From contig NZ_PTJC01000006.1 in assembly GCF_002934605.1 (NCBI RefSeq), forward strand, positions 1,922,001 through 1,986,000: DNA of 64,000 nucleotides, read 5' to 3'. Position numbers and translations under genes: made by a program. Of the stretch, positions 28,718 to 38,284 are shown piece by piece. The notes beneath the pieces were generated by a model. It ran no database searches and was not told the DNA's origin. It worked only from the letters and a program-made list of their open reading frames with translations. Positions within the stretch are counted from its first letter, which is position 1; each line of letters begins with the position of its first letter. This DNA comes from Neolewinella xylanilytica. Its GTDB lineage: Bacteria; Bacteroidota; Bacteroidia; Chitinophagales; Saprospiraceae.

Positions 28718-29593
28718 ATGCGATTACCTTTACTCATTTTTCCCGCCCTCTTTGCCTTCGCGCTATCGTCCTGTTCGGAAGAGAGCGTCCTTTCCCCGGA
28801 GCCGGCCAAACCTGCCTCCGGATTCCTGGTCGACCAAAACGAGGACGGCCACGTAGCGATGCCCGACCTGGGTTTGGAAGCCCCCGTCATTGCCCACGTA
28901 GAAGGGCACAGCGCCCACTACGAAAGTGCCGAACGCATCGAGGTTACCCGTCCGGACGGTACCGTGGAGACCCGCTACCTGGTAGACAACGACATCGAAC
29001 TTACCAAGGACCAACTGCGGGAGCTTCAGGCGATGGATGCCGCGCTGGAGAAACAGTACCGCACCAACAATTTGGCGACCGACAACCGGATCAGTGTCAT
29101 CGGCTACACGGGGAGCGGCAACGCGCTAACCAGTAAAATGCAGACCGCCCTGCAGTGGGCAATCGACAACTACAATGCCCTCAACACCAACAAGCAGTTC
29201 ACCCTGACCTTCGGTTCGGGAACGAACGCTGACATTGTTGTCTACCGCAACACCACCAATAACGGTGCCGGTGGGGTTGCCGGCTTCCCCAGCGGAGGCC
29301 GTCCTTACAAGTGGGTGCAGATCTACAACGGAATGGAAAGCTACGATACGAACACCAACGAGCACGTGATTACCCATGAGATTGGCCACTGTATGGGTTT
29401 GCGGCATACCGACTGGTTCAGCCGGGAATCGTGCCGACAGAGTGGAGAATCGGCCGGCTCGGACGGTGCGGTCCTGATACCGGGTACACCCTCCGGTTTT
29501 GACCCGAATTCCGTCATGCTGTCCTGCTTCAGCAGTGGAGAGGACGGAGAGTTCGGCTATTACGACCGGGTGGCACTGGAATATCTATACTGA
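28718..29593 (+). CDS. Zinc metalloprotease, M57-like lipoprotein
   Basis: Exported metallopeptidase of 291 residues. Signal peptide and lipobox: MRLPLLIFPALFAFALSSC. A propeptide-like region follows, and the catalytic domain starts near residue 115. The extended zinc site is VITHEIGHCMGLRHTD (HExxHxxGxxH type), followed by the Met-turn region SVMLSC. This is the metzincin layout of the M57 (dual-action HEIGH) family found in Bacteroidota. It would act at the cell surface or periplasm on peptides or proteins. It has its own strong terminator at 29619 and is not in an operon. Confidence 0.88.
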   Translation: MRLPLLIFPALFAFALSSCSEESVLSPEPAKPASGFLVDQNEDGHVAMPDLGLEAPVIAHVEGHSAHYESAERIEVTRPDGTVETRYLVDNDIELTKDQLRELQAMDAALEKQYRTNNLATDNRISVIGYTGSGNALTSKMQTALQWAIDNYNALNTNKQFTLTFGSGTNADIVVYRNTTNNGAGGVAGFPSGGRPYKWVQIYNGMESYDTNTNEHVITHEIGHCMGLRHTDWFSRESCRQSGESAGSDGAVLIPGTPSGFDPNSVMLSCFSSGEDGEFGYYDRVALEYLY

Positions 29594-33035: not shown

Positions 33036-34151
33036 CTACCGCCACTTACGGGCGATTTTCCAGGCGGTTTCCAGCATATACGGGGACCAATTCTCCATCT
33101 GCCAGGCAGAATTTGCCAAACTGGAGTTACTCAGCCGGTCTTGCACCTCCGCCAAGGTAGATGAGGTTTCCAGAATAGTGCTCAATTCCTGCTGCTCGTT
33201 GGCTAGAGCCCTATCCTGTAGTGGCGGATGGGTGATGGGGGAAGTATTGGGTAAGCAAGGTGCCGGGCGATCATTCACTGGCTGCTGAACCATCGCCGTA
33301 CAGACCGACGTCATCCGGTCAAAGTCCGCCTGAAACCCGAGCTGGGCTTCGGTTTCGCGCAGTGCGGAGCCTAACTGCTCCAGCACGACGAATTTGAGAT
33401 TCGAGCACCGGGGCGCGATCTCGTGGAGTAGGTGGAATACCTCATCCGGCACCCGTTCGTCGTGGGTATCCCGGCGCACCCGACCGGTGGGTGCATCATG
33501 GTGGAAATCCCAGCTACCCCCCGAAAGATGCATCTCCCGCACCCGTTCCAGGGGAATGTGCCGTAGTAATTCCTCCAGGTCGAGGGAAAAATTGTGTAGC
33601 TGACAGTAAAGATTATGGAGGTCCAGAATCAGCAAACCGTCGATGGGCTGTACGAGCTGATCCAGGAAGGCGTACTGCCGGAAGACATCATCGGCGGAAT
33701 AAGCAAATGCCAGGTTTTCCAATCCCACCGGGCATCTGGCGGCGTCGTGGAGTCGATGGAGCCGATCCTGGCCGATCCGTAAGGTGGATTGCGTAAGGGG
33801 CGGAGCGATAGGCGCGCCGCGGTGAAAGTTGGCACCGGTAAGGAAACCGAAGTGTTCGGTAACGTGATCGAAGGGAAAGGCCTCAACCGTGTGGGCCAGC
33901 CGGTCCAGATAGTTACGCTGATCTTCGCTCCAGGCGCCGGAACAGACGGAATAGAAGATGCCATGACCGATTAGCCTGCCTTCCGCGGCGAAGGCCTTCA
34001 ACAATGCAGCAAACCACTCCGGAAGGGTTTCATATTGATAGACGGCGTCGTACGACCACTCCAAACCCGACACCGTTCCTGCTTCGAGTAACGGCAGCGC
34101 GGTGCTAAGCAGCTGGTGGTCAAGGTTGCAGGCAAGGGAGGGATAGGTCAT
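33036..34151 (-). CDS. DUF692 multinuclear iron-dependent oxidase (MNIO), likely peptide-modifying
   Basis: TIM-barrel enzyme of 371 residues from the ATG at 34151 (MTYPSLACNLDHQLL); an ATG at 34175 would overlap the peptide gene by 16 bases. Residues about 1-285 match DUF692: H63 in IGHGIFYS, H100 in TEHFGF, E145 in LENLAF, D177/H179/N180 in LDLHNLY, H208 in REMHLSGG, D228/H230 in DTHDERVP, E258 in VVLEQL. These fit the iron ligands of MbnB, TglH, ChrH and BufB, enzymes that rewrite Cys or Asp residues of precursor peptides. Residues about 290-371 form an extra C-terminal segment that I cannot assign. The gene starts 8 bases after a Cys-rich peptide gene, its probable substrate. No separate partner protein gene is adjacent. 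Confidence 0.85.
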   Translation of the reverse strand: MTYPSLACNLDHQLLSTALPLLEAGTVSGLEWSYDAVYQYETLPEWFAALLKAFAAEGRLIGHGIFYSVCSGAWSEDQRNYLDRLAHTVEAFPFDHVTEHFGFLTGANFHRGAPIAPPLTQSTLRIGQDRLHRLHDAARCPVGLENLAFAYSADDVFRQYAFLDQLVQPIDGLLILDLHNLYCQLHNFSLDLEELLRHIPLERVREMHLSGGSWDFHHDAPTGRVRRDTHDERVPDEVFHLLHEIAPRCSNLKFVVLEQLGSALRETEAQLGFQADFDRMTSVCTAMVQQPVNDRPAPCLPNTSPITHPPLQDRALANEQQELSTILETSSTLAEVQDRLSNSSLANSAWQMENWSPYMLETAWKIARKWR

Positions 34152-34159
34152 GGACTCGT

Positions 34160-34372
34160 TTATCCCATTCCGCAAGCAGGACAGCTATCTCCGTAGTCCG
34201 GCCAGTAGGCTTCGGGAGTGGCGTTGACGCACTCACCGACGCAATTATCGGTACAACCTTCCACGCAATCGTCGGGGTCGAGTTCCATCTTAGTCTCCTC
34301 GCTACAGGAGGGGGCAAGGCCGACCGTAAGTCCTAGGGCAATGGATTGAAGAAGCAATTTATTGAGTTGCAT
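34160..34372 (-). CDS. Cysteine-rich exported peptide, candidate RiPP precursor of the MNIO
   Basis: Peptide of 70 residues. Residues 1-23 form a signal sequence (MQLNKLLLQSIALGLTVG...APSC) with a weak lipobox ending at Cys 23. The mature part is acidic and carries Cys 36, 40, 44 and 48 at exact four-residue intervals (CVEGCTDNCVGEC), then a linker with Tyr-Trp-Pro, and a C-terminal CPACGMG with Cys 64 and 67. The stop lies 8 bases before the MNIO start, so the two are coupled. Cys-rich secreted peptides next to a DUF692 gene are the hallmark of MNIO-processed RiPPs such as bufferins. A small hairpin (ACGGG/CCCGT) sits right upstream of the ATG. The product is not recognised by name; a metal-binding or metal-response role is inferred. 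Confidence 0.78.
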   Translation of the reverse strand: MQLNKLLLQSIALGLTVGLAPSCSEETKMELDPDDCVEGCTDNCVGECVNATPEAYWPDYGDSCPACGMG

Positions 34373-35986: not shown

Positions 35987-38284
35987 TTATTCTTCCTCGG
36001 GTGCGAAGCGGGCGCGACCACTGCGGTCTACGACGGTGGAACTTGCCTGCTGGGTACCCTGCAACACCACGTCCAAAATATTGACGTGGGGCGGCTGACT
36101 GATCATGAAGTGAATGGTTTCGGCTACGTCACGGGAGCGGAGCGGTTGAAAATCCTGATAAATCTTCGCCCGCTCGCGGTCGCCGTCGAAGCGGACGAGG
36201 GCGAATTCCGTTTCCTCCACGTGTGCCGGGCAGATCTGTCCGACCCGAATTCCGTGTTCGACGAGATCGAGCCGCATGGAGTGGGTCAGGGCATCCACGG
36301 CGTGCTTGGTCGCGCAGTACACGTTGCCGTTGGGATACACTTCCTTGCCCGCCGTACTGGCTACGTTGATGATGGTCCCCCCTTTTCGAGCCACCATCCC
36401 CGGGGAAATGGCGCGGGTGACGTACAGTAGTCCCCGGAGGTTGACATCGATCATCTCATCCCAGTGGTCGAGATCGCCGCGATGAATTGGGTCGAATCCC
36501 TTGGCCTTACCGGCGTTGTTGATAAGAATATCGATTGCCCGCCAAGCCTCGGGAAGATTGGCGAGCTCCTCCCCTACCCGTTCCCGATCGGTAACGTCCA
36601 GTTCCAGGGTGTGCACATCGATGCCTGCCGCATTCCGTAGTTCCCGGGCGACGGCATCCAGCCGCTCTTTCCGGCGGGCCGCCAGGATGAGCCGGTAACC
36701 TTCCTCGGCTAGCCTTCGGGCGGTGGCTAGTCCGATACCGCTGGTAGCTCCGGACAGAAAGACCGTTTTGCCGGCACCGCGCCGCACTTTCACTTCGGCG
36801 TGGGGAGCCTCCCGGTCGGACAGCATGGCTTCCAACTCGGCAATATTTTGTTTGAGGGCGGATAGCGCATCGCTGGCCACGGGCGGTTTTTTTTCGACGG
36901 GTGGAGCATGATGGCCGGCGCTGAAGGCCCGGCGATTGGCCGGGGTACCGTACGCCGGCTCCAGATTTACAGCCAGTAGAAAGTTCTGCCTGGCGTGGTT
37001 TAAGCGGCCCCGATCGAACTCCAACACCGCCAGCAGGTAGTGGGCCGGCGCGTGTTCCGGGTCGATTTCGACGGCCATCTGGAGTGCTTTAAAGGCCTTC
37101 TTCGGTCGATCGAGGGGACCGGCAAGCAGCTTGCCGTACCGATAATAGGTTTCTCCCCGAACCGAGCTGTCCTTGGTGGCCCGACTCAAGTAGGTGGCCG
37201 CCTCGCGGTGGTCGGCGGGAAAGTGATCGGTGAGCAGGTAGCCCAGGCGTTGGTTCAGCTCGGGGTAACCGGGCTGCAGGTCGGCCAGTCGTTGCCATCT
37301 TTGGCGCGCCAGCAGGTAATCACCGGCGGCGAGGTGCAGTTCTCCGGCGAGGAACAGGGCTTCGGCGTGGTTGGGTTCGCGGGTCAGCAGCTCGGTTATC
37401 TCGGTGCGGGCGGCATCAATGCGGTCGGCGGCCAGCGCCAGCATCAGCGCGTATTGGTAGTGAAGTTCGGCGTGCTCGGGGCGATCCTCCCGTCCCTCGG
37501 TCAATTCTTCCAGGGCCTCTTCGGTATTGCCGGCGTCCGACATGCGCCAGGCACGCCGGATGATCGCATCCGCCGGTTCGGAGCCGGGCCGGTCGTTGCC
37601 GGAGTGGTCGGCCACTTTATCCCGCATCGTTACACCCGCGCCCGACGCCCCACCTTCACTTTGCTCCGCTGCGGAGGCGGTCGACTCTTCCTGGTGTTGC
37701 TGTGCAGGTTCCGGAGCCGGAAGTCCGGCGAGCTGGTAAATGGGGTCGTAATCGGCCTCCCGCAATTCCCGGTCGGGGAGCGGGTCGAGGTCCAGCAGTT
37801 GTTCGAGTACTTCCTCCACTCCTACACTCGTCTCCCGGATTTTGCGCAGGTATGCCTTAAAGGCGTGTTGGCTAACGGCATCGGTGTAGTCGTCGCCCCC
37901 CCGCCGCAGCTCGATGTAGCGGTCTTGCCAGTGACTGAGGTAGTGCATCACGTCCGTGCGATCGAAAAGGCGGGTTTCCACACTGATCACCTCTCCGGTG
38001 CTGGGCTCCAACCGGTGGGCGTCGATAACCAGCGGGAGGATTTGGTCGGTACGCTCCATTACCCCGATCAACCCCTGCATGGCATTGGGGTTGGTGAGCA
38101 GGCTGTCGCTGATGAGTAAGATGAGTGGAAGGCGGTTCTTGCGGAGAATGTCCGTCAGCAGCTCTCCGTCGTTTGCCCTGCCCACGGGATAGTGCTCGAG
38201 TTCAATATCAGCCTCCACGGCCGCCGAAATACGCTGGGCGGCGGAAAGGTCTTCTTGGCTATAGGCAATGGCGAGTATCGACAT
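35987..38284 (-). CDS. TIR-like / TPR / short-chain dehydrogenase fusion protein
   Basis: Protein of 765 residues from the ATG at 38284 (MSILAIAYSQEDLSAAQRIS). Residues 1 to about 125 look like a TIR-type fold: strand ILAIAYSQED, strand PLILLISDSLLTNPN, strand ILPLVID. A catalytic Glu as in TIR NADases is not seen. A low-complexity linker (about 185-240) precedes TPR-like helix pairs at about 240-450 (ALEELTEGREDRPEHAELHY, HAEALFLAGELHLAAGDYLL, AVEIDPEHAPAHYLLAVLEF). Residues about 505-750 are a complete classical SDR: GATSGIG at 512-518, NNAG at 589-592, Ser 643, Tyr 656, Lys 660, NADP-type RRKE. I know of no characterised protein with this order. It is first in a transcript with tmk. Confidence 0.8.
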   Translation of the reverse strand: MSILAIAYSQEDLSAAQRISAAVEADIELEHYPVGRANDGELLTDILRKNRLPLILLISDSLLTNPNAMQGLIGVMERTDQILPLVIDAHRLEPSTGEVISVETRLFDRTDVMHYLSHWQDRYIELRRGGDDYTDAVSQHAFKAYLRKIRETSVGVEEVLEQLLDLDPLPDRELREADYDPIYQLAGLPAPEPAQQHQEESTASAAEQSEGGASGAGVTMRDKVADHSGNDRPGSEPADAIIRRAWRMSDAGNTEEALEELTEGREDRPEHAELHYQYALMLALAADRIDAARTEITELLTREPNHAEALFLAGELHLAAGDYLLARQRWQRLADLQPGYPELNQRLGYLLTDHFPADHREAATYLSRATKDSSVRGETYYRYGKLLAGPLDRPKKAFKALQMAVEIDPEHAPAHYLLAVLEFDRGRLNHARQNFLLAVNLEPAYGTPANRRAFSAGHHAPPVEKKPPVASDALSALKQNIAELEAMLSDREAPHAEVKVRRGAGKTVFLSGATSGIGLATARRLAEEGYRLILAARRKERLDAVARELRNAAGIDVHTLELDVTDRERVGEELANLPEAWRAIDILINNAGKAKGFDPIHRGDLDHWDEMIDVNLRGLLYVTRAISPGMVARKGGTIINVASTAGKEVYPNGNVYCATKHAVDALTHSMRLDLVEHGIRVGQICPAHVEETEFALVRFDGDRERAKIYQDFQPLRSRDVAETIHFMISQPPHVNILDVVLQGTQQASSTVVDRSGRARFAPEEE

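Follow-up and report, generated by a model that had tools for sequence, protein, structure and literature searches.

A putative minimal chryseobasin-like DAG-RiPP gene pair of the DybA/DybH kind, with a middle cysteine array, in Neolewinella xylanilytica

This study concerned two adjacent reverse-strand genes in the window, that is, the whole 64,000-nucleotide stretch of Neolewinella xylanilytica DNA analyzed here. A precursor peptide gene, whose product has cysteines at positions 23, 36, 40, 44, 48, 64, and 67, lies upstream of a gene for an MNIO enzyme (Table 1). The original prediction was accurate as to the position of both genes and the gap of 8 bases between the end of the peptide gene and the MNIO start codon, the ATG at 34151; an alternative upstream start, the TTG at 34175, would overlap the precursor gene. 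The neighboring genes encode an MBL-fold hydrolase, thymidylate kinase, and MiaE, and no partner-protein gene was found among them. Elsewhere in the window, a 761-aa protein (35987-38272, reverse strand) combines TPR repeats (about 235-440) with a short-chain dehydrogenase at its C-terminus (about 500-725); roughly the first 230 residues have no Pfam match and are TIR-like by impression only, and among 80 named loci the sister protein falls in a cluster of 5. The window also encodes an M57 'HEIGH' metallopeptidase (28718-29593, forward strand; 224.8 bits) with a lipoprotein-like start, and a similar protein is present at the Lewinella sp. IMCC34191 locus.

Table 1. Positions in the window of the two genes and their predicted parts.
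Feature	Positions	Strand	Details and basis
Precursor peptide, assigned as ChrA-related/DybA-type	34160..34372	-	70 aa; NF050125 match
Signal peptide region, residues 1-23, up to lipobox-like Cys23 (L-A-P-S-C)	34304..34372	-	sequence; Cys23 also in DybA
Middle cysteine array CX3CX3CX3C (Cys36, 40, 44, 48)	34229..34267	-	sequence; family comparison
C-terminal tail CPACGMG (residues 64-70), predicted modification site	34163..34183	-	sequence; published DybA/ChrA chemistry
MNIO (PF05114), assigned as ChrH/DybH-type, 371 aa, TIM barrel and C-terminal helical domain	33036..34151	-	profiles, alignment, model
C-terminal helical domain of MNIO (residues about 314-371)	33039..33212	-	AlphaFold2 model; PMC12636315

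Concerning the precursor, its N-terminus is hydrophobic as far as Cys23, and the putative lipobox is atypical in having Pro at -2, which was limited, among the lipobox strings listed, to this precursor and that of Lewinella sp. IMCC34191. Its tail fits the C-terminal CPxCGxG pattern. The best NCBIfam model was NF050125 ('ChrA_rel_RiPP', 'chryseobasin-related MNIO class RiPP peptide'), which matched over model positions 1-56 of 56 with 32.5 bits (E 1.1e-7), below the cut-off of 40; DybA passed with 61 bits, and the Lewinella sp. IMCC34191 precursor scored 34.8, also below. Judged by its sequence, the peptide is classed as ChrA-related and DybA-type despite missing this cut-off, and the view that it resembles no precursor known by name had to be given up, as it matches both NF050125 and DybA. 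The export signal and the seven cysteines that had been described were both found, but the term secreted calls for refinement: since the signal resembles a lipoprotein signal, with Cys23 in the register of the lipidated cysteine of DybA, the peptide is better read as probably lipid-anchored. In the N. xylanilytica genome, Lgt and LspA each had two matches above cut-off.

The enzyme matched the Pfam model PF05114 (DUF692) with 107 bits (cut-off 25) and the NCBIfam model NF050165 (ChrH) with 341 bits (E 6.1e-102, residues 11-370 of 371), and the NCBIfam models for BufB, HvfB, and ApyH gave 86, 71, and 42 bits, respectively. The NF050165 cut-off of 600 bits was missed, and therefore the enzyme was not filed as ChrH proper; the experimentally studied DybH (384 bits) misses it as well, and it was reached in none of the 398 genomes of the window's family. 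The nine residues named earlier as conserved (H63, H100, E145, D177, H179, H208, D228, H230, and E258) showed no variation across 35 aligned sequences of ChrH-type relatives. With 35 sequences as input, AlphaFold2 gave a model (mean pLDDT 89.8, pTM 0.90) comprising a barrel, a low-confidence linker at about 290-300 (pLDDT below 50 at 294-298), and helices at 314-329, 333-341, and 357-369; PMC12636315 names a C-terminal helical domain as characteristic of the ChrH subfamily. The best solved structures found with Foldseek were those of TglH (8hci, E 5.8e-13, and 8hi7) and MbnB (7fc0, 7tcw, 7tcr, and 7dz9), and the only solved structures matched by the sequence at E 0.01 were TglH 8hci (E 4.8e-12) and the DUF692 protein 3bww. 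By profile and by model, the enzyme is assigned to the ChrH type.

The chemistry of relatives has been described in PMC12636315: DybH alone, with no partner, converts the tail of DybA into a macrocycle and a hydantoin with a shift of -4 Da, and the seven-residue tail suffices for recognition by DybH, even when fused to GFP. According to the same text, the middle cysteine of DybA is left untouched by the MNIO, the conserved cysteine of DybA is lipidated via the lipoprotein pathway in E. coli, and the DybH product has no UV absorbance feature and a function that the authors state to be unknown. Four further homologues were co-expressed in that work, where ChsH and HymH gave -4 Da, ArlH gave a mixture with a methylated product, and MelH together with MelHc gave -4 Da. 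ChrH, as described in PMC10214503, acts on the CPACGMG tail of ChrA with a mass shift of +10 Da. Among our loci, that of Dyadobacter crusticola DSM 16708 (L099) was taken as the DybA/DybH locus itself, since its precursor has Met26-Asp27 and the 13-residue C-terminal LysC fragment as described in PMC12636315.

The window pair resembles DybA/DybH in the precursor lying upstream of the MNIO with no obvious partner gene, in the lipobox-like Cys23 and the CPACGMG tail, and in the ChrH-type enzyme with its C-terminal helical domain. It differs from DybA in four additional cysteines (CX3CX3CX3C) and in the Pro at lipobox -2, and the enzyme shares 49% identity with DybH (185 of 374 columns). The chryseobasin pair ChrA/ChrH shares the MNIO subfamily and the CPACGMG tail (PMC10214503), whereas its product is S-methylated (PMC10214503), ChrA-like precursors are described as longer and without the extra conserved cysteine (PMC12636315), and its cluster contains ChrI (DUF1772), reported at first as required and later as dispensable, of which none lies beside the window pair. 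The bufferins and oxazolins (BufABC, HvfABC) have in common with it the MNIO superfamily and exported cysteine-containing precursors, but the window enzyme scores far lower with BufB and HvfB than with ChrH, and the enzymes of those systems are described in PMC12452194 as having DUF2063-type partners and a copper role.

Relatives of the pair were found in many genomes. At E 0.001, NF050165 matched 66 of the 398 genomes of the window's family, which were drawn from a larger group, and 57 full-length family loci scored 336.9-470 bits; the named members of this family are Saprospiraceae, Lewinella, Flavilitoribacter, and Phaeodactylibacter. A same-strand reading frame ending in C..CG.G lies at most 1.2 kb from the enzyme in 112 of 113 distinct loci, upstream in 108 of them. 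The exception (L011, with the same enzyme as L041) has no tailed frame upstream and a contig end near downstream; among the 113 loci, no clear case was found of a close enzyme relative lacking an adjacent peptide gene. Between the window and Lewinella sp. IMCC34191, 58 of 70 precursor residues and 261 of 369 aligned enzyme residues are kept, with dN 0.234 and dS 1.94 (near saturation) for the MNIO and dN 0.124 for the precursor, where dS was not computable. The conservation in Lewinella together with the tailed frame in 112 of 113 loci indicates that the pair is not a chance open reading frame. The enzymes of the window and Lewinella sp. IMCC34191 have the two lowest NF050165 scores among the 57 full-length family matches and share a long isolated tree branch (1.46 changes per column), which leaves room for altered chemistry in these two enzymes.

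Further precursors were searched for with a DNA pattern encoding CPxCGxG followed by T-R-R (the stops, also TGG), which matched 114 of the 398 genomes. The three matches checked in the N. xylanilytica genome were the precursor itself, the end of a frame of 58 residues that lacks a signal (L144), and a site with no frame of at least 20 aa (L145), and thus no second precursor was found by this pattern among the matches listed; two matches in other genomes (G003 and G017) end similar frames of 35 and 54 residues without a signal. In seven other loci (L005, L010, L046, L057, L062, L085, and L129), two tandem tailed precursors with different spacers lie near one MNIO, and at L127:544-670 (reverse strand), some 1.2 kb away from the usual precursor, a second short frame with no obvious signal ends in CPACGRG.

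Within the genus, the pair was present in only 2 of 21 genomes, one of the 21 being only 55% complete. When 15 same-genus genomes were compared via MiaE, the order GlgP-MiaE-MBL-thymidylate kinase was kept in four relatives without the pair (G004, G008, G011, and G012), with the MiaE and MBL matches 6-18 bases apart and the stop codons of the two genes touching or overlapping in the two genomes where both were found. In the other nine, no MBL was found beside MiaE in the stretch examined, G003 alone having a fragment of it with 45% identity. It is this MiaE-MBL junction that the 1.4-kb pair occupies in the window and in Lewinella sp. IMCC34191. As the pair is present in so few same-genus genomes and MiaE and MBL abut in four relatives, it is an accessory cassette at this site, where gain and loss are indistinguishable. 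No conserved third gene emerged when neighboring frames of at least 90 aa were clustered without annotation, with 13 CX3C loci marked: the largest cluster other than that of the enzyme (79 of 80 named loci) covered 9 of the 80, one of them with CX3C.

Based on this evidence, we read the window pair as a minimal DAG-RiPP cassette that is chryseobasin-like and of the DybA/DybH kind, with a probability of about 0.86. Working without a partner protein, the cytoplasmic MNIO would bind the precursor at its C-terminal CPACGMG. A four-electron oxidation of this tail would link its two cysteines in a macrocycle and create a hydantoin (-4 Da), and the product would probably carry no methyl group. In the lipoprotein pathway, Lgt would then add diacylglycerol to Cys23, LspA would cut off the signal, and acylation of the amine may follow. 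About 48 residues long, the mature peptide would be seated in a membrane, its free end bearing the macrocycle and CX3CX3CX3C lying between anchor and macrocycle. Both the tail modification and the lipidation have been shown for the relatives DybH/DybA in E. coli (PMC12636315), and by analogy with them the product is probably membrane-anchored, and both the tail modification and the route of export are predictable with good confidence. In the original prediction, the modification was left open, with metal binding as the leading guess; chemistry at the CPACGMG tail is already published for DybA and ChrA, and for the modified tail that guess finds no backing in the DybH product described above. 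The MNIO RiPP pair with an exported, cysteine-containing precursor agrees with the family placement of both parts, whereas the suggestion of a new system does not, with an enzyme and a peptide related to DybH and DybA. Apart from its four-cysteine array, the gene pair, which is real, is already mostly explained, and it is an ordinary member of a very young family.

Two other identities of the peptide were weighed against this DybA-like reading. As several MNIOs modify internal cysteines (PMC12452194), the enzyme might act on the array, as bufferin and oxazolin enzymes do on internal cysteines, with the tail serving only as a recognition tag. We consider this highly improbable, since the window enzyme is ChrH-type and the tested members of that type described in PMC12636315 change the tail, a tail-GFP fusion is enough for DybH while the middle cysteine of DybA goes unmodified, and 54 of 119 tailed peptides contain no middle cysteine. 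The published DybA/DybH chemistry makes the tail, rather than the CX3C array, the likely MNIO substrate. The peptide also matched the model of CXXX-repeat radical-SAM peptides, TIGR04117, weakly (E 0.0071, 16.4 bits, cut-off 50), which would make it no MNIO substrate. This identity is exceedingly improbable, as the Lewinella sp. IMCC34191 precursor has no TIGR04117 match at E 1, and it was rejected because TIGR04115, which we take to be the partner maturase of TIGR04117, had no match in the N. xylanilytica genome at E 0.001; 10 of 14 control genomes have TIGR04115 matches below cut-off.

Turning to the middle array, cysteines between the lipobox and the tail were counted in 119 tailed precursors, namely 128 distinct tailed peptides, a few of which may not be true precursors, minus 9 without a cysteine in the lipobox window. 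Besides the 54 with none, 31 had one, 22 two, 10 three, and 2 four middle cysteines, the latter, as CX3CX3CX3C, being only the window and Lewinella sp. IMCC34191 peptides. Exact three-residue spacing was found in 38 of 48 adjacent middle-cysteine pairs (2000 shuffles: mean 3.0, maximum 10). CX3C was carried by 32 of the 119 peptides, 20 of which have a His at most five residues after the second cysteine, often as C-x-I/V/L-D/N-H. By enzyme locus, CX3C occurred in 30 of the 57 family loci and in none of 56 other loci sampled, which were drawn from the best 80 of 334 loci and include no Chryseobacterium. The CX3C label was clustered on the enzyme tree, where it requires 13 changes, fewer than in any of 500 shuffles (mean 26.6); this tree was made by a quick method, with 41 of 110 inner branches open, two very long branches (L006 and L139), and two partial enzymes (L140 and L141) excluded, and only 2 of the 13 changes are required when its starred branches alone are considered.

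These data could mean, tentatively, that the array is a second functional thiol site, for metal or for redox/disulfide chemistry, beside the macrocycle, which would add to the DybA-like reading; the regular spacing, the nearby His, and the confinement of CX3C to family loci in this sample point in this direction. Against it, the peptides are related, so that the spacing and motif counts are not independent, the motif is missing in 27 of the 57 family loci, its label needs 13 gains or losses on the tree, the His is absent from the window peptide, and, in the 25 largest neighbor clusters, no gene of at least 90 aa accompanies more than 2 of the 13 marked CX3C loci. The middle cysteine number, varying from 0 to 4, argues against a strictly required site. 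The array may also be a spacer with no activity. From sequence comparison, metal binding could be conceivable for the array, and it is possible, though we hold it doubtful, that the DAG-RiPPs of the window's family (Saprospiraceae/Lewinellaceae) carry a second conserved CX3C site between lipid anchor and macrocycle, expanded to four thiols in the Lewinella lineage. The terms 'CxxxC', 'Lewinella', and 'Saprospir' are absent from the main texts of PMC12636315 and PMC12452194, and no paper describing the array was found in the searched literature, which is thin in subscription journals and does not include supplements; the array may thus be new.

The curated NCBIfam cut-offs miss the window lineage: that of NF050165 (600) excludes DybH too, and that of NF050125 (40) excludes the window and Lewinella precursors. 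The present analysis places this divergent Lewinella-like lineage in a RiPP-lipoprotein family of stated unknown function. If the second-site proposal is true, the mature product would be a membrane-tethered peptide bearing a metal- or redox-active thiol array beside the macrocycle and would form a functional class separate from that of DybA. The thiol array and the presence or absence of the pair within one genus offer handles on the function of this family.
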